Source of the DNA: Fuerstiella sp.
Lineage (GTDB): Bacteria > Planctomycetota > Planctomycetia > Planctomycetales > Planctomycetaceae
Assembly (NCBI GenBank): GCA_029247265.1
Contig: JAQWLN010000267.1
Span: forward strand, 1 to 56,398
DNA: 56,398 nt
Reading direction: 5' to 3'
In this document: positions 1 through 27,232 of the stretch, in pieces
Numbering within the stretch: position 1 is the stretch's first letter
How the letters are laid out: each line of letters begins with the position of its first letter
Notes under the pieces: model-generated
What the model saw: the letters and a program-made list of their open reading frames with translations, nothing else
Told to the model about the DNA's origin: nothing
The model's database searches: none
Position numbers and translations under genes: made by a program

Positions 1-1957
1 CAGCATCCTTCATCGGGGAAATCATCGATCGGTAGGTCTCCGCCAGCAGTATCCTTCCCGCAGGCGTCTGCCCTTCGTTGAACATACAGACCAGAAACTT
101 TGACAGATCAGACACGCTTGCATACAGGTTCCCAGCAGGGCCGGTGCCCAGCAGAAATGTGGGTGCTTCAAAGCGTCGGCCGTCGTAAGTACGCATCCAT
201 CCGGTCGCCAGCTTTTGTTTGACAGCCGGCGTGACGACAAACCCACTGCTGCCCATGTTTAATGGGTTCAGAATGGACTGCCGCACCTGCGCCGCATGAG
301 ACGCGTCCAGCTGTTTCTCCAGCACCGCCCCGACAACGGCGATGGCAGCGTTTGAGTACTTCGTTCTGGTGTTGGGCCCATAAACCAGTTTCGTACGGTT
401 CAGGCTGGCGACTGTCGCTGCCAGAGTTGGTTCGGTGGGATCGAAGTAATTGCCCACCGGTGACTCGCGGACCAGACCGGACCGATGAGTCATCAGTTGA
501 CGCAACGTGATGGCTATGTCGAACGGATTATTCGGCTGAAACTCAGGCAGATAGGATTCTACCGGAACGTCCAGGTCAAGCCGCCCGCGTTCCACCAGTT
601 GCATTACGGCAATGTCGGTGAACAGCTTCGAAACCGAGCCGACGCGATAAACGGTTTCGGCAGTTGCCGGTATTTTTTTCTCGGCATCCTGAAACCCGAA
701 TCCGTCACTCCAGACAACTCGTTCGTCGTCGACCAGTGAAATGGAAAATGCGGGCAACTGTTTCTGTTCGACTTCATGACGAATGGCGGACTTCAGTTTT
801 TCGACAACGGAACTGTAGTCGGTAACGGCCAGTGGCTGCGGCGCAACAATATCGGCAACCGATTCCGCAAGTTGTAACAGACTGACATGCTGCAGATTGC
901 ACATGATCGCGACGGAAGTGCCTGTTTCCGGAATCAACAACAGGACGGTCGACGTTCCCGACTGACCGCCCGTGTGCGACACCCGCTTTTGCCCCAGACG
1001 CGACGCGACCTTCCAGCCCAGACCGTAGCCCGTATCCTTCCCATCACGAGTTTTCTGGCTGCTCCACATTTGCTTCAACGACTCGCCATTCAGCAGGTTT
1101 TCCGTGTTGGCTGCGATCGCGAATCTGACCAGATCGGAAGCCGTTGACAACAGGCCACCGCCCGGAATCTTCATGCTGGTATCGTGCAACGGGGCATTAA
1201 ACAGCTCACCCGGTTTCGAAGCGTCGTCACCGAACAACGCCGCCTGCCGCTCTTTCGTCGGTCGCATATACCCCCGTGTTCGGTGCGGAATAATGGCGTA
1301 CTGGTCGTCCACTACGGTCTGTGTCATGTTTGCGGACAGCAGGACATGCTGACGGAGCAGTTCGACGAACGTCTGATTTGTCGCCCCTTCCACGACGTTA
1401 CCCAGCAGATTGAAACCGAATGTCGTGTAGTGAAACTTCGTTTCCGGTTCGTGCAGCAGCGGATCGTCGCGAAAAGTCTGCAGTGCTGCATCGAGGCTGC
1501 TGAAGTACTGAGTCGAAAGGGCCTCCGCTCCGCTCTTGTAATGCCTTACGCCCGCCAAATGGCCAAGTAGTCGTCGTGACGTAACCGGCCAGCGTTTTTG
1601 CGGATACTCAGGCCTGTACCGCTGAACTTCCGCATCAAGGTCAATGCCACCTTGCTCAGCCAATGCAAGCACGATAACGGCCGTCATCGACTTGGCGATG
1701 GACGCGGTGCGAAAAAGCGTATCGCTCGTGGCCGCAACCGAATTTTCGACGTCGGCCAAGCCGAAGCCCCGTGAGTAGGAAAGTTGGTTGCCAGTAGCCA
1801 CAGCGACTGAAGCACCAGGTACTCCGTGATCTGCAACAAACTTCGATATGAGCCGCTCAACGTCCGCGACGGTCTGCGGCTTCAGTTCCTCAGCAGGCGC
1901 AGATTGAACGAATACTGCCGCTGCAACAGCCAGAACGCAGATGTGTTCCGAATTCAT
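1..1957 (-). CDS. Serine hydrolase with two beta-lactamase/D,D-peptidase-like domains (partial, 3' end beyond window)
   Basis: The frame is open from an ATG at 1957 to the left edge, so the C-terminus is missing. The first residues (MNSEHICVLAVAAAVF) look like a signal peptide, suggesting export. The chain carries two serine-hydrolase domains of the class C beta-lactamase/D-alanyl-D-alanine carboxypeptidase fold. Domain 1 has the nucleophile motif SIAK near residue 88 and a late HTGG box. Domain 2, encoded from about position 790 down to the edge, has SVSK and a YSN triad. In domain 1 the YxN box is less clear (YTTFGFN). Family members cleave D,D-peptides, D-amino-acid amides or esters, and the true substrate cannot be read from the sequence. 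The gene starts 29 bases after the stop of the deacylase fusion and is the last visible gene of a four-gene operon. Two catalytic domains in one chain are unusual, because most homologues have one. Confidence 0.85.
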   Translation of the reverse strand, partial: MNSEHICVLAVAAAVFVQSAPAEELKPQTVADVERLISKFVADHGVPGASVAVATGNQLSYSRGFGLADVENSVAATSDTLFRTASIAKSMTAVIVLALAEQGGIDLDAEVQRYRPEYPQKRWPVTSRRLLGHLAGVRHYKSGAEALSTQYFSSLDAALQTFRDDPLLHEPETKFHYTTFGFNLLGNVVEGATNQTFVELLRQHVLLSANMTQTVVDDQYAIIPHRTRGYMRPTKERQAALFGDDASKPGELFNAPLHDTSMKIPGGGLLSTASDLVRFAIAANTENLLNGESLKQMWSSQKTRDGKDTGYGLGWKVASRLGQKRVSHTGGQSGTSTVLLLIPETGTSVAIMCNLQHVSLLQLAESVADIVAPQPLAVTDYSSVVEKLKSAIRHEVEQKQLPAFSISLVDDERVVWSDGFGFQDAEKKIPATAETVYRVGSVSKLFTDIAVMQLVERGRLDLDVPVESYLPEFQPNNPFDIAITLRQLMTHRSGLVRESPVGNYFDPTEPTLAATVASLNRTKLVYGPNTRTKYSNAAIAVVGAVLEKQLDASHAAQVRQSILNPLNMGSSGFVVTPAVKQKLATGWMRTYDGRRFEAPTFLLGTGPAGNLYASVSDLSKFLVCMFNEGQTPAGRILLAETYRSMISPMKDA

Positions 1958-1986
1958 GGGACGGTCTCAGACTTCAGCAGTGAAGG

Positions 1987-4734
1987 TTAGGGGACGATTT
2001 GTGTTGCTGAACCCGTTCGGGTTAAAACGCGACCGGAAAGATTACCGGTCCATTGTTCTCGATCAACTGCCAGCTGCCCGTTGACAAAAACGTACTCGAT
2101 TCCCTCGGAATATTGGTGTGGATCAAATGCATCAGCCCGGTCGCGAATCCGAATCGGGTCGAAGACGACAAGATCTGCGGGAACGCCCTTACGAATAACA
2201 CCTCGGTTGGGCAGTTTCAGAATCTTCGCCGGCAACGACGTCGAAACGCGAACGGCTTCCTCAATGCTCATCAAACCACGGTCGATTGCATAGTGCCGAA
2301 TCTTTCTGGGAAACGCTCCATAGAATCGGGGATGCACCGGTCCATCATCTGGTAACGCAATTCCGGCATCGCTCGACGTGGCTGTCCACGGTGTGGCGGC
2401 GAATGCTTCCACATCTTTCTCCGACATTGAAAACGCCCTGAGTCGTGCTCCACCCCGTCGCCCCCGATCTCCGTTTAACTGTAGTGAAATGGCGGCTTCA
2501 ACGATGGTAGATTTCAATTCTGTGGCGAACTCCTGCAACGTCTTTCCGACAACATCAGCCTTCGGGTGATCGACGATCAGGATATTGTCACTGCCACCAC
2601 GGCGAGTGATTTCGTATTCAATATCACGACGTAAGTTCGCCGCCAGCGCTTCATCAGCCAGAACCTTCTCGAGCGTCTCGGCTGGACTCAGCGTGTCGCC
2701 TGTTTCGGAATTCTCACTGGCCTGATCCGAAGATGCCCAGGCAGGAATCAGAACGACACGCCCGTCAGATCCGCTGGTATTGTACGAATACTGGTCAGCG
2801 AAAAATGGCAATCCTTCGCTCCTCGCGTGTCGAATCAATTCATTCATCTCCTGGCTGGAGCCCCAGAAGTCTGTGCCTCTGGCTTTAATATGTGTGGCAA
2901 CCGTGGTCACTTTGGTGGCGGCGGCGATTTCAACCAGCTCCTTAAGATTATCCAGCATCGACGGCTGATCTGCCGAATCACGGCTGGGCAGAAACCACAT
3001 CGGCCGGCTGCCGGAACTTCGTTCGTGCACGATGTACACGCCGGCGAAAGAAGCGATCGTTTTCGCCAGTGCTTCCATCTCGCGAGCAGTGCTCCAGCGA
3101 CCGGGCACATATTCAAGACCGGCTGACATTCCGAATGCGCCCTGCTGCAGGCACGATTGCAGAAGTCGGTTCATTCGTTCCACCTCATCGACGCTGGCCG
3201 GCCGTTGGTGGTCCTGCCCCATGACTTCTCTGCGAACTGTTCCGTGTCCGATAACCGGGGCAACGTTCATGCCGACACCAAGACGTTCCATCGTCTGACG
3301 TTGATCGGCAAGGTCCAGTGGACCACCTCCGTCCTGGTTCACGACCACGGTGGTAATTCCCTGAGTAATCAGGTTGGGCGCGCTGCGCCGCGCCGGGTCG
3401 GCGGCGACGAGACCTGATTCGGCGTGACTGTGCAGATCAATGAAGCCTGGCGATACCAGCCGTCCGTCTGCGTCAATGACGGTCCGGGCGGTCTCGTTTG
3501 CCAGCATACCGATTTCAGCAATGACGCCGTCCAGTATCCCCACATCAGCCTTGTCACGTGGTCGCCCGGTGCCGTCGATCACCTCTGCGTTGCGAAGAAT
3601 GACATCAAACGTCAGCCCCCCTTCTCCGTCTAATTTCGTCGCTGCACGCACCGGATTCAGATCTGCGATGGCTGTCGATGCCGTCGGCCTAGCGGCAACG
3701 ATCATCGAGAGCAGCTTTCCGAAATCCGCCTTCGACACTGATGTGCCCTGCTGGAACGTATTCACGCGATGACAAATCACCAGGTCCCACTGGGGAATCA
3801 CTAACAGATACTGTCCGCGATAGCCTCGTGCTGAATACGTGCCGTCCGGAAGTGAAATGCCGGGGAAATGCCGGCCGTCAACGGCAACCCACCACATGTA
3901 ACCGTAGCCACCTGAGGCTCCCACGCCGGAATAGGATGTTGTGCTTTCATCTACCCAGCGCTCGGGAATCAGCTGTCGTCCCTTCCAATTGCCACCGCGC
4001 AGAAACAACAGTCCGAATCGGGCAAGATCACGAGTGCTGAGCTCAAAGGGGTAGGCAGAGTGCACGGAGTTGTCGCCTGTGACATACCGCGTGTGACGAT
4101 CGCGATGGAAGTCCTCCAGATCAATCGGCCCGGCGATGCGATCCTCAAACTCCTCGAAGATGCTGCGTCTGGTCAGCTTTTCGAAGATAGAACAGGACGC
4201 ATTGAAGTCCCAGTTATTGTAGTACCAAAAGGTGTTCGGAGCGCGGGAACCGCGTTGCGGTCGGGCTGCTGCCATTGATGCCGTTTCGTACAGCGCGGGA
4301 TGGTAGATACCAGAACGTGCTGTCAGAAGATCGCGGATCCGTGCCTGACGTTCCGACTCCGACAGTGACGGTTCATTGTCATTGACGCCCAGTTTCTGCA
4401 TCGTCAGGTTCAGATCGATCACTCCGCTGTCAACGTGTGATCCGTACAACGCGCTTAGCAGGCTCTTCCTGACGGAATGGCAATTCAACGGCAGAGCGAC
4501 GGCGCCCCATTGATCCACTACACGCCCGCCTTCCACAATCATAATGGCCGCTGTATCAAGCGATTCTGAGAATTCCCTGGCCGTTGCCAACTCTTCGACG
4601 GACCAGCCTGCGTCGGACGGCGAAGTCAGCCGTTCCCAGCTGCGTCCTGGAAAATCGTCGCCCGATGCGGACGACAGCACACAGCTACAAATGAGCCAGA
4701 CGACACACATTTTTCCGGAAATCGATCTTCGCAT
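1987..4734 (-). CDS. Fusion of a beta-lactamase-like serine hydrolase and an N-acyl-D-amino-acid deacylase
   Basis: A 915-residue protein with an N-terminal signal peptide ending near SSASGDD. Residues ~30-350 form a serine hydrolase: the SxxK motif is SVRK at 87-90, the YxN box is YNN at 172-174, and a GYRGQY strand near 304 replaces the usual K/HTG. Residues ~377-915 form an amidohydrolase of the D-aminoacylase family, starting with [14 protein letters not shown]. It has the HxH metal motif in DLHSHAE (435-437), THIKARG, a late SSDAGI segment and the closing [11 protein letters not shown] strand. Known D-aminoacylases remove the acyl group from N-acyl-D-amino acids. The classical enzyme from Alcaligenes has a zinc-ligand Cys in the TTVV strand; here the strand reads [10 protein letters not shown], so that Cys is absent and metal use may differ. 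The gene begins 32 bases after the epimerase stop. The fusion suggests coupled cleavage of D-peptides and deacylation outside the cytoplasm. This is inference from architecture. Confidence 0.85.
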
Positions 4735-4766
4735 GAATTGTTTCTCAGTAGACCGGTCGGTAGGTT

Positions 4767-5810
4767 TCAGACGGTCAGTTTGTCAGCTTTCTCCGGCACA
4801 AGCTCCGCACCGTTTCCGTATCTGTCGCTAAGGCGGACATGCCCGTTGATGACTGCAACGCCATCGGCCGGGTCTTCCGCCAGCAACACAGCACCGTCAA
4901 GATCGGCATAGTCAAGCAGGGGCAAAAGCTGCGCAGCGGCTGAGATGCCGACGGTGCTTTCCACCATGCAGCCGACCATCGTTTTCATGCCACTGGAACT
5001 TGCCTGCCGCAGCATTCGCGCGGCAGCAGTGAGTCCGCCACACTTGCAGACTTTGACATTTACTCCGTGAAAACGTCCGACACACTTTTCGACGTCCGAT
5101 TCCACAAGGCAACTTTCATCAGCGACTACTGGCAGCGATGATTCGTCAAAGACGCGTCGATGGTCTTTGTCAGCCGCCGCAGCCGGCAGCGGCTGTTCGA
5201 TAAACTCAACACCCAGTGGCTTCAACTGAATTGAGTTGGCGATCGTCTCTTCGGCCGTCCAGCCGCAATTGGCATCGACACGAAACAGGGCAGACGTGTG
5301 TTCTCGCAACTGGCGGACGATCTCAACGTCCTGCGACGTCCCCAGCTTGATCTTGTAGATACCCCAATCAGGTTTTTCACGCAGCTTTGCGACCATCTCA
5401 CTAATCGGGGCGATCCCGATCGTATAACTGCTCGGAGGCACATTCTGCCACTCCAGTGCCAGTACATCGTAGGTTCTTTGATTCTGGAGTTTTCCGTATA
5501 GATCATGCGCAGCCAGGTCAATCGCTGACAGAGCGAACGAATCGTCTTTCAAAAGTGGCTGCAGATGGTCCCACAGGTCCTCCGGGTCTCCGAAGCAGTA
5601 GTTCTTCAGAAAGGACTCACAACGGTGAATCGATTCAGTCATCGATTCCAGAGAATGCCCGTAGAAGGCATTTTCTGTGACTTCGCCCAATCCATAGATG
5701 CCGTCATGTTGAAGCTCCACGATCAGCGAACGCTGCACGGTCGTGGTCGCACGAGCAATCCGGAATGCGTGTGCCAGAGGCAGCCCAAACCTATGCAGCT
5801 GAACATCCAT
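4767..5810 (-). CDS. Enolase-superfamily epimerase/racemase (DgcA-like or L-Ala-D/L-Glu epimerase)
   Basis: A 347-residue member of the muconate-lactonizing-enzyme subgroup of the enolase superfamily, without a signal peptide, so cytoplasmic. All catalytic elements are present: the KxK pair K153/K155 (YKIKLG), metal ligands D179 (RVDANCGW), E205 (FIEQPL) and D231 (ADESC), and the opposing lysine in NVKVCKCGG (K253/K256). A DLDG segment at 313-316 resembles the DxD region of dipeptide epimerases. Relatives interconvert L-Ala-D-Glu and L-Ala-L-Glu in peptidoglycan recycling. When paired with a DUF1611 protein they have been assigned as DgcA, which racemises N-acetyl-D-glutamate. The start overlaps the stop of the DUF1611 gene as TGATG, indicating translational coupling, which favours the DgcA reading. 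A dipeptide epimerase role is not excluded. Confidence 0.88.
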
Positions 5811-6877
5811 CAGCGTCGCTCCCCGCGGAGAGCGAGAACAGCGTCGGCCAGCGCGTCGGCCCCGTTACGGTAGACGTCACATGCTGGCAGTCCAAGCTCT
5901 GAACTCACGCGTTCGCATTCGGCTGCGGTCTGGTCAGCGGACAGGTTGCGTCCGTTTACAGAGACACCAATCACTCGACACGGATTCCGCAACGCTGCCA
6001 TGGTTTCATATGCGGTCACCAGCTGCTGCAATGGTGGAATCTGAATTTCATCCAGCCCCTTGACCATCTCCCGACCCGCCTCATAACACATGATTAACCC
6101 GTCCGGAGCGCACCCGTGCAGCAAACCCAGCGTTACTGCCGAGAAGCTGGGGTGAGAAATGCTGCCCTGCCCTTCAATTAGCAGGATGTCATGTTTTTCG
6201 TGTCGCTGGACCAGGGATTCCGCGGCCCCATTGACAAAGTCGGCGACGACGCAGTCAATCGGCACACCGTCTCCAGCAATCATGATTCCAGTCTGTCCGG
6301 TGGCAACAAATCGTGCGTCTTCGCCACGTTCTGCCAGGACACGCTGAGTCTCCAGCGATGTGACCATTTTCCCGACACTGCAGTCGTGACCGACCGTGAG
6401 AACCCGCAGGCATCCTTGGCGAAAATCCACATGTTGCGCCGTATGCCGTTCGGTATTCCGGCGAACGTCAATCAATTGACAACCGTGTTTTTCCGCAGCA
6501 CTGGTGAATTCACTGTCATTGCACAGGAAGTCATGCAGTCCTGAGACCACGTCCATGCCTCGGCCTAATGCGCTAACCACAATCTGACGCCAGTGGTCCG
6601 GAAGCTTTCCCCCCGGCGGTGCGATGCCAATAAACAGCGCGTCCGCTTCTGCCTCGTCAAGAGATCCGACTACGGGGACGGTGCCCCCGGTTCCGAATAG
6701 TGCCTGCGCCGTACTCCCCGCCTCAGTGGCATCAAGAACTGCAGCGATATCGTCTTGTCGGTATCGCAGCAAGCTGATCGCTGTCTTAGCCAGGAACGGC
6801 GTCGAGAAGCCATCCGTAAGCAGCATGATTCGACGATACCGATCCAGTTCCGATTCACTTCCGTCTGCTTCGTCCAC
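5810..6877 (-). CDS. DUF1611 protein, DgcN-like (putative D-glutamate N-acetyltransferase)
   Basis: A 355-residue soluble protein of the DUF1611 family. The N-terminal domain begins [19 protein letters not shown], the usual family opening, after about 13 extra residues, so a start inside the annotated frame is possible. The second domain is a P-loop-like fold: GHDCSVGK at 153-160, ATGQTG at 182-187 and [10 protein letters not shown] at 225-234. DUF1611 proteins were once annotated as NAD-dependent epimerases or mobilisation-like proteins. In a marine D-glutamate pathway (DgcN) the family was shown to acetylate D-glutamate so that an enolase-superfamily partner can racemise it. Its TGATG overlap with that partner here supports the assignment. 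It is the first gene of the minus-strand operon, so the promoter should lie in 6878-7269. Confidence 0.85.
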
Positions 6878-7269: not shown

Positions 7270-10200
7270 GTGGCATCTGAAAGCCAATCTTCCCCCGGAA
7301 TGTTCTCCCGATGCGTTGGCAGCATCGTAGGCTATTCCGCGCGCCGACCACGGTTTGTGCTGTGGCTCATGGTCTTCATTGGCTGCGCAGCAGTCGGTGT
7401 AACCGTGTCGGACCTGAAGCTTAAGAGTAGTCGATCACATCTGCTGGGGCCCGACCAGGCATGGCAGGACTACAATCAAGCATTTGGTAACGAGGCAGAC
7501 CTGGTAGTCGTAGTCGAAACAGACGGGCCAAATCCACAACTCATCCAAACGGTGCTGAGTCAACTTGGGACGCGACTTGAACGTGAACCCGAACTGTTTT
7601 CTCACGTTCTTTATCGAGTTAACCAGTCGGCGTTGCGACGCAAAGGGTTGCAGTATCTTACCGAGGAACAGTTGCAATCAGCCCTCCGACGAGTTCGCAG
7701 TTTCGATCCGATTCTGCGGCAGGAACGATGGGATTTGCTGCGTGTCGAAAAACTGGCTAACCAGCTGCAGCGCAGTGTTCATGCGGCGAACAATGAAGGA
7801 AAGACTTCTGCGGCGACCAGTTATGCGGAACGTTTTGCCAGCAGTCTGAGTCATTTCCTGCCAGCAAACGCATCGGACGCTGTCGTCAACAGCGGCAGCT
7901 TTAAGTCACCGTGGCCGGAAATTGTCGACACAGAAATTGAACACTCCGCCGAAGACAGCGATCTTGCATACCTGATGAATGATAATCGCAGCGTCGGCAT
8001 GCTGCACGTCATACCAGTGACCGAAGAATCCGGCACTGACGGAAGCGCGGCATCCATCATCCGTCTCCGCGAGCATCTGGCCGAGTTGTCAAAAGAGTAT
8101 GGTCAGCTGGCACCAGACCTGCAGTTGTCGGCCACAGGCATTCCCGCGCTGGAACACGATGAACTACACCGTTCCGGACGCGACATGATTAACGCCGCAC
8201 TCATTGCCTTCGCTGCTGTCGGCTTTCTTCTGGCGTTCGGCCTGCGAGGACTACGGCATCCGGTTCTGGTGCTGATCATGCTGGTGCTGGCGCTGGCACT
8301 GACGTTTGGACTGGCGACTCTTACTGTCGGTCACTTGAATATTCTGAGCATTTGTTTCTCGGCCATCATGATCGGCCTGGGCGTCGACTTCGGCATACAC
8401 TTCGTCACTCGCTACCTGTTTCTGCGACAGGAATTGCACGAGATGGACGAGTCACTGGTACTGACTGGCTCATCGGTCGGCAGCGGAATTCTGACATCCG
8501 CCGCAACGACGGCGATTGCCTTCGGCAGCGCCACGCTGACAGGATACCCGGGCCTGGCGGAACTGGGTTTGATTTCGGCCTGCGGAATAATGGTCTGCGC
8601 CTTTCTGACGTTTACGTTCCTTCCCGCACTGATCGCTTTGTCTGACGAATGCGTAGACATTGAAGATTTGCCGGAACCCCGATCGGGCAGGATGTGGCGC
8701 GTCGCCGTTGCCAGCTATCCGCTAACAGCAATCGCTGTGGCGGTTGTCGCAATTGGAGCCACCGCGTGGCAAGCGGCCAGCTATCAGGACGGCCAAGTGC
8801 ACTGGCATGTCAACTACGACGGAAACCTGATGGCTTTGCAGGACGATGATTTACCATCTGTTCGAGCAGAAAAGACTCTTTCTGATTCAGATGACTCGCT
8901 GCTTTATGCCGTTGCTCTGGCGGAATCAAAAACCGCGGTGGACGAACTCCGTGCCAAATTCATGGCGCTGCCGACCGTCGGACGCATAACAGATCTTTCC
9001 AGCAAGATTCCTGATCCTCCGAACACCACGCAGCGCGAACTGATCCTGACCCTGGAATCGCAGTTAACGAATTTACCGACGAAGACACCGACATTTACTA
9101 CGTCCAACCCGATTCCTGTCGGGAAAAGTATCGACCAGCTGTACAAGTCATTGAGAGCCTCACGAAATCTGGAATCGCAGGAAGCGGCTAAGACGCTCGA
9201 CAAATTTCTTGATCGGCTGGCGTCACTGTCGTCCAGTCAGCAGGCAGCTGTGATTGAAGCGTACCAGAATCTCATGGTCAGCTCTTTGCTGAAAGAATTC
9301 CACCAGGTCGCTCGGGCGACGTCGCTCGAGCCAGTGAGCCACCAGGATCTTCCGCTTGTGTGGCGTGATAGATATCTACGAGCTGACGGTGACCGGGAAT
9401 TGTGGCTCATGAAGGTCTATCCCAAACGAGGTATCTGGAATCAGGACGCTCTGGGGGCCTTTGTAAAAGACCTGCGCGGCGTGGATCCGTCCATTACCGG
9501 AATACCGGTACAGAACTTCGATTCCGCCAACAAGATGCAGGAATGCTATACCACGATCGCGATTTACTCGATTGCCGCCATTGCGTTGTTCCTGCTGTTT
9601 GACTTCCTGCGCCCCGGCCAGAAACTGTTGACCATCGTGCCACCGATGCTCGTTGTGGGCTTTGTGGGGTACACGGCGATGCAGCGTGCGACCAGTCTTA
9701 ATCCACACACGCTGGTTGCCATCTATCTTTCAATGGTGGCGTTCATCGCAACGGTATTCGACGTGCGGAACCTGCGGGACACCCTACTGGCAATGGTTCC
9801 ACCAGTCGGAGGCGGATTGATTCTGCTGGGACTGATGGCGATGCTGAATGTGGATTTCAACCCCATCAATCTCATCGTTCTGCCGCTGGTTCTGGGGATC
9901 GGAGTGGACGATGGCATCCACATGGTCCACGACTACCGCCGACAACTGGCCGACGGCGCCAAGGAATATTCACCATCCGGCGACACTGTCAATGGTGTCC
10001 TGTTAACGTCACTGACGTCCATCGTCGGCTTCGGCAGTCTGATGATTGCCGCGCATCAGGGACTAAAAAGCGTGGGAATCGTCCTCGCCCTGGGCATTGC
10101 CTCGTGTCTGGCAGTGGCATTGATCCTGCTGCCACCGCTATTAGTGCTTGTCGCTCGTTATCAGCCTGCGTCATTGGAGCCTGTAGTGCCTCCGAAAGCG

Positions 10201-10302
10201 AAGAAAACAAGTTCTGATGCCGACAACGGGAATTCAGAAACTGCAGAACCGGACAACTCAAAACGGTTGTCACGAAAACAGCGACGACAACAAGCCGCCT
10301 GA
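7270..10302 (+). CDS. RND/MMPL-family exporter, HpnN-like
   Basis: A 1010-residue inner-membrane transporter with the two-fold RND layout. There is one N-terminal membrane helix (about 28-46) and a large periplasmic loop to about 305. A five-helix bundle holds GVDFGIHF at 371-378. A second helix at about 480-500 and a second periplasmic loop lead to a final bundle holding GVDDGIHM at 878-885. The acidic residues in these two motifs are where proton relay is expected. The opening segment and length resemble HpnN-type lipid exporters that move hopanoids between membranes, but no hopanoid gene is visible nearby, so the substrate is unassigned. The C-terminal ~45 residues are a charged tail (KKTSSDADNG... 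SRKQRRQQ). The start is GTG at 7270; an in-frame ATG at 7300 is an alternative. It is monocistronic here, facing away from the dgc-like operon and convergent with the ceramidase-like gene. Confidence 0.85.
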   Translation: MASESQSSPGMFSRCVGSIVGYSARRPRFVLWLMVFIGCAAVGVTVSDLKLKSSRSHLLGPDQAWQDYNQAFGNEADLVVVVETDGPNPQLIQTVLSQLGTRLEREPELFSHVLYRVNQSALRRKGLQYLTEEQLQSALRRVRSFDPILRQERWDLLRVEKLANQLQRSVHAANNEGKTSAATSYAERFASSLSHFLPANASDAVVNSGSFKSPWPEIVDTEIEHSAEDSDLAYLMNDNRSVGMLHVIPVTEESGTDGSAASIIRLREHLAELSKEYGQLAPDLQLSATGIPALEHDELHRSGRDMINAALIAFAAVGFLLAFGLRGLRHPVLVLIMLVLALALTFGLATLTVGHLNILSICFSAIMIGLGVDFGIHFVTRYLFLRQELHEMDESLVLTGSSVGSGILTSAATTAIAFGSATLTGYPGLAELGLISACGIMVCAFLTFTFLPALIALSDECVDIEDLPEPRSGRMWRVAVASYPLTAIAVAVVAIGATAWQAASYQDGQVHWHVNYDGNLMALQDDDLPSVRAEKTLSDSDDSLLYAVALAESKTAVDELRAKFMALPTVGRITDLSSKIPDPPNTTQRELILTLESQLTNLPTKTPTFTTSNPIPVGKSIDQLYKSLRASRNLESQEAAKTLDKFLDRLASLSSSQQAAVIEAYQNLMVSSLLKEFHQVARATSLEPVSHQDLPLVWRDRYLRADGDRELWLMKVYPKRGIWNQDALGAFVKDLRGVDPSITGIPVQNFDSANKMQECYTTIAIYSIAAIALFLLFDFLRPGQKLLTIVPPMLVVGFVGYTAMQRATSLNPHTLVAIYLSMVAFIATVFDVRNLRDTLLAMVPPVGGGLILLGLMAMLNVDFNPINLIVLPLVLGIGVDDGIHMVHDYRRQLADGAKEYSPSGDTVNGVLLTSLTSIVGFGSLMIAAHQGLKSVGIVLALGIASCLAVALILLPPLLVLVARYQPASLEPVVPPKAKKTSSDADNGNSETAEPDNSKRLSRKQRRQQAA

Positions 10303-17686: not shown

Positions 17687-19129
17687 CTACTCATAGTCGT
17701 TGCCATTCAGACTGTTGATCACAGACCTCCGCCATGCGGTGAGTTCTTTCTGCATCGACAACACACGTTCCGGCTGACTGGCGACCAGATTCTTCGCTTC
17801 CATCGGATCCGTTTTCAGATTGTAGAGTTCAATTGTCACCCTGCCAGACTGCTTCGTTCCGGCGCCGATGTGGTGGAGTTTCCAGGGCCATGCCAGCCAT
17901 GCGGAATGTCCGGACTGTTCGTCATCTGCAAACCGCGTTTTAATCACGGCCGCGTCGGTCACAAGTCGAGCTTCGTCGTGATATTCTTTGCCGGTCTGTT
18001 GAGCGGCCAGTTCTTCTCGCATCCATTTATCACTGGGCGTGGAGATGCCTCCCTGATTCATCTTCCAGAAGCCCATCCCGTTTGGCCGCACGTCCGACTT
18101 GTCGTCGATGACGGACACCAGACTGATGCCATCAAGGACCGGCTGGTGTGCAGGCTCGATGCCCGTTAGTTCCAGAAGCGTGGGATAGATGTCTGTCGTG
18201 TTTGCCGGGATCTGTGTGATACGCGGCTTCTTGATGCGGGCAGGCCATTCAATGATGGCGGGCACTCGGAGCCCTCCCTCGTAGATGGCTCCCTTCTTTG
18301 CACGACCACCGCTGCTGGCCGTTTGTAATCCGCCGTTATCCGACGTGTACCAGAACAGAGTATTATCGCTGACACCCACATCCTTCAGAGCCGTGCGGAG
18401 TTTGCCGACCGCACGGTCCAGACCGGTTATCTCGCCCAGCCAGTGTGCGTTCTTTTGACCTTCGTAGTGGGCCAGATCTTCCGCAGCCGCTCGATGAGGA
18501 CTATGCGGTGAACCGAACCAGACGACCGCCAGGAACGGTTTGGATTCTTCTACCTGTGACTGAATGAACTCAATCGCAGCATCCGCGGCCAGTATGGAAC
18601 TCTCGCCGGGCACTTCGACGGCTTTCCCTTCGTGACTGAGCACGGGATCGTTGTCATAGAAATTGAAGGCGGACAGCCAGTGGTCGAATCCGCTGTTGCC
18701 GGGACTGACCGGGCTGCCCTTCAGCACGGATCCCAGATGCCATTTGCCGAAGTGTCCGGTAACGTAACCTGCCGCCTGCAGACGCTCGGCGACTGTGATT
18801 TCCTGTGGACGCAGCGGTCGGCCCCATGAGAAGCATCCAAACCGATTCGGGTGCCGGCCCGTCATGACGCTGCCGCGCGTCGGTGAACAGACCGGAGCCG
18901 CGGCGTAAAAGTGCTCGAAACGCAGACCGTCAGCTGCCATCGCATCCAGATGAGGAGTCTTCAATAAAGGGTGGCCGTTATATGCCGTATCGCCCCAGCC
19001 CTGGTCATCCGCCATGCACAGCACAATATTGGGCAGGGCCGCGTGAGTCCGGAAAGGAGCCGCCACGGACGCGACGACCAGAACCGCCAATGGCAGCGAA
19101 TTCCTGACTTTCATGAGTTGACACTTCAT
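17687..19129 (-). CDS. Arylsulfatase-family protein
   Basis: 480 residues with a signal peptide ending near FRTHA. The sulfatase core is complete. It has the metal-binding MADDQGWGD (DD at 41-42), the CSPTRGSVMTG motif with C81 to be converted to formylglycine, GKWHLG, the later YTSDNGG and the GGLRVPAII strand. The enzyme should hydrolyse sulfate esters of polysaccharides in the periplasm or outside. The start at 19129 is preceded by AGGA at good spacing; a second ATG five codons later is possible. It lies 60 bases downstream of another sulfatase gene in the same direction and is probably cotranscribed. The formylglycine-generating enzyme it needs is not in the window. Confidence 0.92.
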   Translation of the reverse strand: MKCQLMKVRNSLPLAVLVVASVAAPFRTHAALPNIVLCMADDQGWGDTAYNGHPLLKTPHLDAMAADGLRFEHFYAAAPVCSPTRGSVMTGRHPNRFGCFSWGRPLRPQEITVAERLQAAGYVTGHFGKWHLGSVLKGSPVSPGNSGFDHWLSAFNFYDNDPVLSHEGKAVEVPGESSILAADAAIEFIQSQVEESKPFLAVVWFGSPHSPHRAAAEDLAHYEGQKNAHWLGEITGLDRAVGKLRTALKDVGVSDNTLFWYTSDNGGLQTASSGGRAKKGAIYEGGLRVPAIIEWPARIKKPRITQIPANTTDIYPTLLELTGIEPAHQPVLDGISLVSVIDDKSDVRPNGMGFWKMNQGGISTPSDKWMREELAAQQTGKEYHDEARLVTDAAVIKTRFADDEQSGHSAWLAWPWKLHHIGAGTKQSGRVTIELYNLKTDPMEAKNLVASQPERVLSMQKELTAWRRSVINSLNGNDYE

Positions 19130-19189: not shown

Positions 19190-21025
19190 CTATTTCTTCC
19201 GGTTGCGTTTCTTCTTTTCCGCTGGATTAGCAACGCCCATGTACTGTTGCATGCGGGCCACGTATCCGCTGTGACTGAAGCTGCAGACTTTCATGGCATC
19301 CGCATACGGCTCGTGGCCATCACCGATCCAGTCAATAATGTTGAAAATCTTCAATGAGGCATATGAGCTTTCATTCAGTAACTCGTTCCAACAGGCTTGG
19401 GCGGTTTCTTTGTCGCCAGCTCGATACAGAACCCAGGCGGCCATGATACGAACATGATGACATTCGTCGGCCAGACTCTTCCTGATCACGTCCATGTCCA
19501 ATGACGCCTTTTCCTGAACGTTGAAGCAACCGACGATCGCCCAGTAGCGAACTCCCGCATCGACGTCGTTAAAGTCCTTATAAAAAGTGGCGACATTCGC
19601 GGCATCCTGTTCCAACGCCGTAGCTGACGCCTGCTGCAGCGCCTTCAGGTTGTACAGCGACGGATCTCGAACAAGGTCATAGATCGTCTTGCCGGCTTCC
19701 TCCGACCGTTTGACGATCTCACTTTCCGGCAACAGTGCTGAGTCGTAGTGCTCAAGCTGCCACTGGTCCATGGCTTTGCTCAACCGAGCAATATCTGCCG
19801 CGTGCCTGGGATCATCAATAAGATTGTGTACGTTGTCGGGATCGACAGACGTGTCGTACAACTCCTCCATCGGCTTGGTCCCGAAGAAGCGACCAGTGAT
19901 CGCGTTCGTCCTGCCTTCTTTGTGATGCTGCTCCCATGCCTGAGTCGCTTTCATTGTCCACAGATAGTTCAGGTGCTGCCCCCATGGCGCGTAAGGCATG
20001 TAGTTGCGGATGTACAGAAACTTCCGGTCTCGAATGGCTCGCACGTTGTCACAGCGTTCATCCATGCGTGTCCGAAAACTGACGTGATAGTCCCGTGACT
20101 CGACGTCCGGCCCCAGAAACACTCTTCCCTGGAGGTAGTCCGGTGTTTCGGCGCCGCACAAATCCAGCCAGGTCTTCGTCATGTCGATAAAGCTGACCAA
20201 CGTATTAATTTTACTGCCGGGCTCGGCGGGACGCAGATGGGCAAACTTCTCCGGAATCCGGATGACCAGCGGGCAGTGAGTCCCACTGTTAAACAGGAAT
20301 CGTTTACTGCGAGCGATAACGCCACCGTGGTCCGAGTTGTGCACAACGATCGTATTCTCGGCCATGCCGCTAGCTTCCAGATCCGCCAGTGCTTTGCCGA
20401 TATCGGCGTCCATTTTCTTCACCTGATCATGGTAGTGAGCATAGTTCCGACGAATGTCAGGAATGTCAGGGTGGTACTCGGCCAGGCGCACATCAGACGG
20501 GCTGTGCGTGGATTTTGTAACGTCACCAAAGGCCTTCGATTCATGAGACTTGGTGCTATTGATCACCATGAAGAATGGCTGCTGTTTCTTCAGTTCCGAC
20601 CAGTCGACCTTACTCGTATCCCACGGACTGCGATCTTCCCGGCCGCCAATGTTGTAGTCGGTCTTGCCAGCGTTTCCGACATAGTATCCAGCATCCTTCA
20701 TCAGGTCCGGATAATACCGGATGGTATCGTGCGGTATGAGATAGCGACTCCGCATCGGATGGGTTCCCATCGACACGGCATGCACGCCGGTAATCCATGT
20801 ACTTCTCGACGGTGCACACACGGGTGCGTTTGCGTAGCAGTGCATGTACTGAAACCCCTCAGCCGCCAGCGCGTCGATATTGGGAGTGTCGGCATACGAG
20901 TTTCCGTAACAGCCGACCCAGTTGACATTATTATCTTCGCAGGTCAGCCACAGGATGTTGGGACGGTCCGCTGCTGAGGCGAAGGAGGCCGGAAAGAGCA
21001 GAACGGCTAGGATCAGTTTCTTCAT
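19190..21025 (-). CDS. Sulfatase with C-terminal helical (HEAT-like) region
   Basis: 611 residues with a signal peptide (MKKLILAVLLFPASFASA). The N-terminal ~460 residues are a sulfatase: NILWLTCEDNN in place of the usual DD, the formylglycine motif CAPSRSTWITG with C70, and HNSDHGG. The region after ~480 is helical with a HEAT-like pattern (VRYWAIVGCF, VRIMAAWVLYRAG), as seen in several planctomycete sulfatases and perhaps used for protein or glycan contact. The tail is strongly basic (EKKKRNRKK). It is upstream of a second sulfatase and downstream of the propeller and DUF6807 genes; the whole block looks like a sulfated-glycan utilisation locus. The 267-base gap upstream contains a REP-like element. 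Confidence 0.9.
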   Translation of the reverse strand: MKKLILAVLLFPASFASAADRPNILWLTCEDNNVNWVGCYGNSYADTPNIDALAAEGFQYMHCYANAPVCAPSRSTWITGVHAVSMGTHPMRSRYLIPHDTIRYYPDLMKDAGYYVGNAGKTDYNIGGREDRSPWDTSKVDWSELKKQQPFFMVINSTKSHESKAFGDVTKSTHSPSDVRLAEYHPDIPDIRRNYAHYHDQVKKMDADIGKALADLEASGMAENTIVVHNSDHGGVIARSKRFLFNSGTHCPLVIRIPEKFAHLRPAEPGSKINTLVSFIDMTKTWLDLCGAETPDYLQGRVFLGPDVESRDYHVSFRTRMDERCDNVRAIRDRKFLYIRNYMPYAPWGQHLNYLWTMKATQAWEQHHKEGRTNAITGRFFGTKPMEELYDTSVDPDNVHNLIDDPRHAADIARLSKAMDQWQLEHYDSALLPESEIVKRSEEAGKTIYDLVRDPSLYNLKALQQASATALEQDAANVATFYKDFNDVDAGVRYWAIVGCFNVQEKASLDMDVIRKSLADECHHVRIMAAWVLYRAGDKETAQACWNELLNESSYASLKIFNIIDWIGDGHEPYADAMKVCSFSHSGYVARMQQYMGVANPAEKKKRNRKK

Positions 21026-25793: not shown

Positions 25794-27232
25794 ATGAAAA
25801 TTCCCACGGCTGCGTTTTACTGTCTTGTTGGATTTTCTGTCGGGGCAAATGTGTTTGCCCGCGACAAACCAAACATTGTGTAAATGCTGGTGGATAACTG
25901 GGGATGGGGCGATATCAGCGTCCAGGGAGGCACACTCCCGACACCTCGCATCGACACCTTTACTGCACAGGGGATGCGATTCACCAACTTCAACGTTCAG
26001 AATCAGTGCACACCAACGCGATCAGCAATCATGACCGGCCGCTTTCCCATCCGCATGGGAACGCAAAAGGTGGCAGCCCCTGGCGAACCGGACGGAATGG
26101 CGCCGTGGGAGTACACGATTGCCGAGCTGCTTTCCGATGCGGGCTATGCGACCGCTCTTTTCGGAAAGTGGCATGTGGGTTCGAAAGTGGGACGGCACCC
26201 CAACGACCAGGGTTTCGACGAATGGTGGGGCATAAACGAGGGATCTAATGCGGCAGCATACACCAGCACTCCTCAGTTTGATCCTTCCGTCGCCGAAGTT
26301 CCTCACTTCTGGCCCGGCGTGAAGGGCCAACCAGCCCGAACGACGGAAATTTATGACATCCCCGCGAAGGCAACGATGGACCATCGCTCAACCGCAAAGG
26401 CCATTGACTTCATAACTACGCGTTCTGCAGAGGAGAAACCGTACTTTGTCTATCTGGGCTTTACTCATTTTCATCCACCATGGGGTGTACACCCTGACTT
26501 TACAGGACGGTCGAAGGCCGGTGTCTACGCCGACACAAAAATGGAGGTCGATTACAACATCGGCAGGGTGCTGGATGCCATCGATACGACAGGCGGAGCG
26601 AGCAATACCATTGTGATCCTCACTGGTGACAACGGAGCTGCCAACTACCCTTCTCCAGGAGTCGTCACAGGAGAGGTCGGTGGATCCAACGGACCGTGGC
26701 GCGGCGGGCTCAGTACCGCGTGGGAAGGCGGTATGCGAACTCCGGCGATGATTCGATGGCCCGGCAGAATTGCGGCCGGCAAAGTGACAGACGAAATTGT
26801 GGCCGACCTGGACTGGTTTCCGACCATTGCCAGCTTTGTCGGAGAACAGGCACGAATTCCCCACGACCGCCCGATAGGCGGAATCAACCAGGCAAACTTT
26901 CTTCGCGGCAGGCAACAGAAATCCGATCGTGAACACGTCGTGACATATGTCGGCGATACCGTTTTTTTTCTGTAAAATGGCGCAATATGAAGGTGCACTT
27001 TGCGACAGCTGAAGGAACTCATTCCATTGTCCAAAGGTACACGTTCCCTCAGGTTTTCGACATCAGGGAGGACGTCAAAGAAAGTTATGAACTGTGGGGC
27101 AACGAAGGTTATGCTCACGCATGGGTGATGAGCCCGGTAACAAAACTTCTTGTTGAGTTGCAGCAGAGCATGGCCCGATATCCGAATGTTCGTCCCGGTC
27201 AGAACTTTAAGGGATATGACCGAACCAAATGA
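25794..27232 (+). pseudogene. Arylsulfatase interrupted by an in-frame ochre codon and a frameshift
   Basis: Starts at ATG 25794 with a signal peptide (MKIPTAAFYCLVGFSVGANVFA). It reads KPNIV and then meets TAA at 25881-25883, exactly where sulfatases have an aromatic or aliphatic residue. It continues in frame as MLVDNWGWGD, with an ATG directly after the stop. The formylglycine motif CTPTRSAIMTG and the core follow intact. At 26962-26969 a run of eight T shifts the frame and ends translation at 26975. Adding one T gives VFFSVKWRNMKVHFATAEG, and the C-terminal part then runs to 27232 (ELWGNEGYAHAWVM). So two lesions affect an otherwise full-length sulfatase of about 479 residues. The TAAATG arrangement could let ribosomes restart and make a form without signal peptide, but the second lesion would still remove the C-terminus. 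Confidence 0.85.

Follow-up and report, generated by a model that had tools for sequence, protein, structure and literature searches.

A Fuerstiella operon that probably couples exported hydrolases to a DgcN-DgcA-like pathway for D-glutamate salvage

Why should large, apparently exported hydrolases share an operon with relatives of the D-glutamate enzymes DgcN and DgcA? The question is raised by the left end of a 56,398-nucleotide (nt) stretch of a Fuerstiella sp. (Planctomycetota) genome (G000:C70:1-56398, whose first base is also that of contig C70; hereafter the window), where four open reading frames (ORFs), all on the minus strand, form an operon. We read this operon as a D-glutamate (D-Glu) salvage module that combines exported hydrolases with cytosolic DgcN-DgcA-like enzymes, and give this reading a probability of roughly two in three. 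It draws on observed gene order, domains, intact motifs and conservation, from which substrates, direction and uptake are deduced, and on the N-termini for export.

Gene 1 (5810-6877, minus strand; 355 amino acids (aa), GTG start) encodes a DUF1611 protein (PF17396 + PF07755) resembling the N-acetyltransferase DgcN, and gene 2 (4767-5810, minus strand; 347 aa; MR_MLE_N + MR_MLE_C) encodes an enolase-superfamily epimerase resembling DgcA and L-Ala-D/L-Glu epimerases. Gene 3 (1987-4734, minus strand; 915 aa) is a fusion of an N-terminal PF00144 serine hydrolase, here called ‘blaX’, with a C-terminal Amidohydro_3 domain of the PRK09061 type. Gene 4 (2-1957, minus strand) encodes the first two PF00144 domains of a polyprotein of the form bla-bla-M15, which is truncated at the contig end and continues on contig C174 of the same genome (L150:3-1406). 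Genes 1 and 2 share one base (TGATG), and gaps of 32 and 29 nt separate gene 2 from gene 3 and gene 3 from gene 4; ORF calls and Pfam searches thus recover the genes, overlap and spacing just as an earlier sequence-only reading had placed them. Judged by eye, signal-peptide-like N-termini are present on the hydrolase genes 3 and 4 only, with none on genes 1 and 2.

Gene 1 exceeds the Pfam cut-offs for both PF07755 (249 bits) and PF17396 (98 bits), has the DUF1611_N + DUF1611_C architecture, and is 37.5% identical to DgcN of Pseudoalteromonas sp. CF6-2; its GTG start and N-terminus are matched in L091, the corresponding locus of the same-genus genome G002. The solved structures nearest gene 2 are 3iji, then 1jpd and 3rit. 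Its positions KIKLG, VDAN, EQP, ADES and VKVCK align with those of CF6-2 DgcA, 1jpd and 3iji, and correspond to what we take to be the catalytic set of the enolase superfamily (KxK, Asp, Glu, Asp, Lys).

The second half of gene 3, the amidohydrolase, resembles two enzymes of known structure, D-aminoacylase (1rjp, 6e-51) and the N-acyl-D-glutamate deacylase 3gip (1.5e-48). The best NCBIfam model of the whole fusion is PRK09061 (NF006560; 163 bits, below the cut-off of 340), which was presumably once labelled D-glutamate deacylase. In alignments with 1rjp fragments and the CF6-2 protein, the metal residues HxH, His, His and Asp, which together with a Cys we take to be the D-aminoacylase metal site, are retained (the second His column holds no 1rjp letters). 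An SxxK motif is found in each of the three PF00144 domains of genes 3 and 4, whose solved relatives include LACTB, esterases and class C beta-lactamases. Gene 4 reaches 137 bits with the class C beta-lactamase model NF033085 (cut-off 415), and other family-specific models score far below their own cut-offs; a role in beta-lactam resistance was rejected on the class C scores.

Gene 4 had been described as a two-domain serine hydrolase. Two PF00144 domains do lie in the window, but the gene is truncated there and its full form has three domains, ending in Peptidase_M15. The intact homologue at L091 is a protein of 1169 aa in which two PF00144 domains precede a Peptidase_M15 domain at the C-terminus; the window part of gene 4 aligns to its residues 34-687 (79% identity), and an open frame near the start of C174, which contains the M15 domain, aligns to residues 703-1169 (88% identity). 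Because the two pieces match consecutive parts of one protein, gene 4 was most likely cut by assembly, with ~15 codons missing between C70 and C174, and the full product is most likely a serine hydrolase–serine hydrolase–dipeptidase polyprotein with a VanX-type M15 domain. The same-genus genome G001 is split likewise: contig C10 ends in the gene 3 fusion (residues 2-71), and C251 starts in the fusion (residues 55-915) and continues into bla-bla-M15. The C174 piece retains SRHNRGCAVD and EWWH, and the patterns SxHxxGxAxD and ExWH, presumably the zinc-site motifs of M15, were found on C174 as well as in all 6 homologues examined. With the L091 homologue standing in for the C174 piece, the best NCBIfam M15 match is D-alanyl-D-alanine dipeptidase (NF007557; 140 bits, below the cut-off of 176), and VanX (NF033115) gives 86 bits, below its cut-off of 320. 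Short partial M15 matches (model positions 110-188) also occur in frames of 283-349 aa in G011, G017, G024, G000:C59, G001:C476 and G006:C645; these frames are unlike the bla-M15 proteins.

In the salvage module as we envisage it, gene 4, with its two PF00144 domains and VanX-type M15 domain, would cut peptides containing D-amino acids, such as peptidoglycan stem peptides, outside the cytoplasm, and gene 3, with the third PF00144 domain and its N-acyl-D-Glu/D-amino-acid deacylase, would also act on such peptides there. D-Glu or a D-Glu dipeptide would enter through a transporter encoded outside the operon. Once in the cytosol, D-Glu would be acetylated to N-acetyl-D-Glu by the DgcN-like protein with acetyl-CoA, the epimerase would convert this to N-acetyl-L-Glu, and the product would be deacetylated to L-Glu or used as an arginine precursor. 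The origin of the D-Glu in wall peptides is the least certain step.

Conservation was assessed in 58 genomes, including that of the window. DUF1611 is encoded in 17/58 of these and in 7/8 of the genus, and all 7 of the latter have PF00144-type hydrolases at the DgcN locus. Co-occurrence in other planctomycetes, which the sequence-only reading had proposed to look for, is borne out within the genus by two further genomes: the four-gene set is found in G000, G001 and G002, spanning contig ends in the first two and lying on a single contig, in the same order, only in G002. Both halves of the gene 3 fusion occur together in 4/58 genomes, always at a DgcN locus (for G001 judged from contig ends), and the blaX half was otherwise seen only as one weak match in G018, in a search that scored only 15 candidates in some genomes. 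The single-contig genome G005 has a second DgcN copy (L097:9743-13758) without DgcA, at which a DDE_Tnp_1 transposase gene splits a gene 3-type fusion.

At the level of loci, we counted 84 non-duplicate DgcN regions, 81 from the window, a locus scan and relatives plus 3 plasmid records, after dropping the duplicates L092, L095, L096 and L100 (= L007, L011, L012 and L009). The scan is biased to close relatives because it used short peptide patterns of the window protein; the L065 row of the locus comparison, translated in a wrong frame, was disregarded. A DgcA-like gene lies ≤300 nt from DgcN in 62/84 loci. Hydrolase domains lie ≤4.5 kb downstream of DgcN in 23/84, a count that includes L018 and L032, whose hydrolase genes, on the other strand, might be there incidentally. 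Over the same distance, M15 is found in 8/84 loci, all from Planctomycetota (the window's own M15 on C174 excluded), and Asparaginase_2 in 5/84. HxH is lost from the amidohydrolase parts of L012 and L018, which for that reason were not scored as active deacylases. An internal control used the 41 fetched loci that extend ≥8.3 kb to either side, without the window, the plasmid records or the four duplicates: hydrolase domains of these kinds fall within 4.2 kb downstream of DgcN in 10/41, and in 2/123 control intervals of equal size from those loci (Fisher p = 2e-5, only indicative, as the loci are related). This conservation downstream of DgcN argues against a chance arrangement.

The arrangements vary. 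In L014, from the cultured relative Thalassoglobus neptunius KOR42, the order is DgcN-DgcA-bla-M15. In several Verrucomicrobiota a convergent blaX gene comes after the DgcN-DgcA pair; in L036 and L042, which are among these, it takes the form of an amidohydrolase–blaX fusion, its domain order the reverse of the planctomycete one, and is followed by a PF00144 gene. On the DgcN tree (L067, a short row, left out), the verrucomicrobial rows are separate from the Fuerstiella group, and the distribution of hydrolases over the rows takes no fewer than 8 label changes on starred branches; the number of changes is an upper-limit guess, as some hydrolase-free rows end on short contigs. On this basis the hydrolase–DgcN linkage may have been gained or lost repeatedly, short contigs permitting.

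Several neighbouring features are recorded here in their own right. Asparaginase_2 (PF01112) directly follows DgcA in L012, L016, L020, L023 and L025, and is followed by bla-M15 in L012 and L016; a Peptidase_C26 gene takes its position in L103. A second, distant DUF1611 type is present in two same-family genomes (L101:8692-9894; L106:8905-10164), each gene overlapping a gene of 360-364 aa by 4 bases. Upstream of the operon, the window has a divergent MMPL-family gene (7270-10302), which adjoins DgcN in L007 and L091 too, and farther along, between 17687 and 26975, three sulfatase genes (17687-19129, 19190-21025 and 25884-26975).

DUF1611 genes were also found on plasmids (102 records, of which 9, hand-picked across genera among 40 listed, were examined). 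The epimerase gene adjoins DUF1611 in 7/9 stretches, the exceptions being Croceicoccus, where it is present and not adjacent, and Sinorhizobium, where it was not found in the stretch. An amidohydrolase or D-aminoacylase gene is present in 5/9 (CF6-2, Croceicoccus, Haloprofundus, Natrinema and Haladaptatus). In CF6-2, Croceicoccus, Natrinema and Haladaptatus the best model for it is again PRK09061 (180-217 bits, also below the cut-off of 340), and DUF1611, epimerase and PRK09061-family amidohydrolase thus recur together in these four. The Halorussus stretch has NlpC/P60, DacB and oligopeptide ABC genes around the DUF1611-epimerase pair and no amidohydrolase; the Bradyrhizobium and Sinorhizobium stretches have no such hydrolase. 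By these family matches, other bacteria, and haloarchaea too, carry all or part of the gene set.

A link to arginine synthesis appears at 11 of the 84 loci, where DgcN follows argJ (L035, L038, L040, L041, L045, L047, L049, L056, L062, L063 and L065). In 9/11 of these, acpS lies between argJ and DgcN, and in 7/11 an argC-type gene is upstream. These 11 rows plus L054 form one DgcN clade (100/100 support), found in Pirellulales-type genomes and nested among DgcA-linked rows. All 8 of the argJ-linked genomes searched have a DgcA relative outside the stretch around DgcN, 62-68% identical to that of L065. The existence of an argJ-linked clade with DgcA elsewhere in the genome independently supports N-acetyl-glutamate chemistry for the DUF1611 protein, and suggests that these organisms may feed D-Glu into arginine synthesis, with N-acetyl-L-Glu as the exit.

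The genomes surveyed appear to lack the usual glutamate racemase family: no intact MurI-family (PF01177) gene was found in the 58 genomes, the sole match being a 74-codon piece with stops in G002 (1/58), and 10/14 control genomes were positive. A DapF-family gene is present in 10/10 genomes tested, and the Fuerstiella genome itself has ArgJ. According to a published survey (PMC5885031), MurI is missing in much of this superphylum, and DapF is proposed there as the D-Glu racemase.

A number of observations weigh against the salvage reading. Gene 1 scores 293 bits with the NCBIfam DgcN model (NF041892), below the equivalog cut-off of 480, and gene 2 scores 216 bits with the DgcA model (NF042940), below the cut-off of 400; the CF6-2 proteins, used as positive controls, reach 493 and 412 bits. 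‘DgcN-like’ and ‘DgcA-like’ are therefore the proper names for genes 1 and 2, and we infer their substrates, as both enzymes score under the curated cut-offs. Gene 2 is nearer 3iji (37% identity) than the founding DgcA of CF6-2 (27.5%), with 33% identity to 1jpd. The Cys ligand of the deacylase is replaced by Asp in gene 3, as also in CF6-2, L036 and L042, and PF00144 covers esterases and other hydrolases as well. The operon itself contains neither a transporter gene nor a gene for N-acetyl-L-Glu deacetylase. Such hydrolases are present at the DgcN locus in 0/10 relatives outside the genus that have DUF1611 (two stretches are short), a DgcA-like gene is not within 300 nt of DgcN in 22/84 loci (10 of them ArgJ-linked), and 17 genomes have M15 proteins (16/17 fused to PF00144) without DgcN within the fetched ≤12 kb. 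The proposal that exported D-peptide hydrolases are coupled to cytosolic DgcN/DgcA nevertheless gains from their co-occurrence, the two fusion orders, the signal-like N-termini and the M15 domain.

An alternative, which we think unlikely, is a muropeptide-dipeptide route in which the epimerase would act on L-Ala-D-Glu, as YcjG of Escherichia coli and YkfB of Bacillus subtilis do, and the DUF1611 protein on that metabolite or a related one, with free D-Glu not the main intermediate. It agrees with the structures nearest gene 2 (3iji, and 1jpd, which is an L-Ala-D/L-Glu epimerase) and with transporter genes, namely a POT oligopeptide symporter in the Croceicoccus cluster and ABC transporters in both the Halorussus and the Haloprofundus stretch. 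Gene 2 also shares DLDG with 1jpd and 3iji (the L020 row reads DMDG), a DxD motif that presumably binds the dipeptide ammonium in L-Ala-D/L-Glu epimerase; CF6-2 DgcA has DLDG too, however, so the motif does not separate DgcA from dipeptide epimerases, and it was discarded as a discriminator between dipeptide and N-acetyl substrates. The best NCBIfam score of gene 2 is for DgcA, 216 versus 149 bits for L-Ala-D/L-Glu epimerase (NF011708, equivalog cut-off 343), and the tight coupling to DUF1611 in most loci fits an N-acetyl intermediate better.

The hydrolases might instead be unrelated to the pair, acting on esters, lipids or beta-lactams and co-transcribed by chance or through shared regulation alone. 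The functional breadth of PF00144, the M15 proteins often found away from DgcN and the 10 relatives without these hydrolases at the locus would fit. The varied arrangements at DgcN loci, with both fusion orders in two phyla, the same families on the Croceicoccus plasmid, the amidohydrolase in CF6-2 and haloarchaea, the M15 dipeptidase domain and the downstream enrichment (10/41 versus 2/123) make this quite improbable. Least probable by far is a biosynthetic direction, in which the epimerase would turn N-acetyl-L-Glu into N-acetyl-D-Glu and the deacylase free D-Glu for the wall, as the missing PF01177 genes, the 11 argJ-linked loci and the ArgJ of this genome might allow: MurI replacement was rejected as the principal explanation because DUF1611 is patchy (17/58) though intact PF01177 is missing throughout (0/58) and all presumably need D-Glu, and further against it acetyl-CoA-dependent acetylation consumes D-Glu, the deacylase N-terminus is of the export type, and DapF, proposed as D-Glu supplier in this superphylum (PMC5885031), has a family member in each genome tested.

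If the salvage reading holds, the D-glutamate pathway gains a candidate upstream half in the hydrolases that feed it. D-amino acids are described as an important part of the recalcitrant dissolved organic matter of the deep sea (PMC12363236). DUF1611, epimerase, PRK09061-type amidohydrolase and PF00144/M15 together provide a signature for genome searches, and in the argJ-linked clade the fate of N-acetyl-L-Glu could be tested directly. More tentatively, and with the odds somewhat against it, we suggest that MurI-less bacteria may N-acetylate wall-derived D-Glu and so pass it to the N-acetyl-L-Glu pool that feeds arginine synthesis, the Fuerstiella-type operon encoding the extracellular half as giant hydrolase polyproteins, and the Pirellulales-type DgcN, moved next to argJ, serving as an N-acetylglutamate source.

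The D-glutamate pathway itself is known; its hydrolase-coupled form is a variant of which, as of DgcN in arg operons, no description was found in the open-access literature searched. The claim that no described system links all four activities should nevertheless be softened, since all four families are present on a plasmid of Croceicoccus marinus and an amidohydrolase gene lies near dgcN in CF6-2. The DgcN-DgcA catabolic pathway of Pseudoalteromonas sp. CF6-2 was reportedly described by Yu et al. in 2023 (ISME J 17:537). There, as in Fuerstiella, the DUF1611 and enolase-superfamily genes are adjacent, and the genes upstream on the same strand include those for a TonB receptor, an M14 carboxypeptidase and, four genes from dgcN, a PRK09061-family amidohydrolase. 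The Fuerstiella proteins differ in their limited identity to DgcN (37.5%) and DgcA (27.5%), below equivalog cut-offs; dgcR precedes dgcN in CF6-2, in place of the divergent MMPL gene; and the Fuerstiella hydrolases are multi-domain fusions directly downstream, M15 and PF00144 domains not having been found in the CF6-2 stretch by the queries used. The C. marinus plasmid (NZ_CP019603) carries on one strand a PF00144 gene, the epimerase, DUF1611, a second PF00144 gene and a PRK09061-type amidohydrolase; unlike in Fuerstiella, these are separate proteins, a POT peptide symporter and a TonB receptor are encoded among them, the epimerase is not adjacent to DUF1611, and the cluster gave no M15 match. 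The muropeptide dipeptide modules ycjG-mpaA of E. coli and ykfABCD of B. subtilis likewise link a dipeptide epimerase with wall-peptide peptidases; to our knowledge, they include neither a DUF1611 protein nor a deacylase fusion. Finally, the M15 domain shares the motifs SxHxxGxAxD and ExWH with the D-Ala-D-Ala dipeptidases VanX and DdpX but, unlike them, forms the C-terminal domain of a predicted exported polyprotein with two PF00144 domains.

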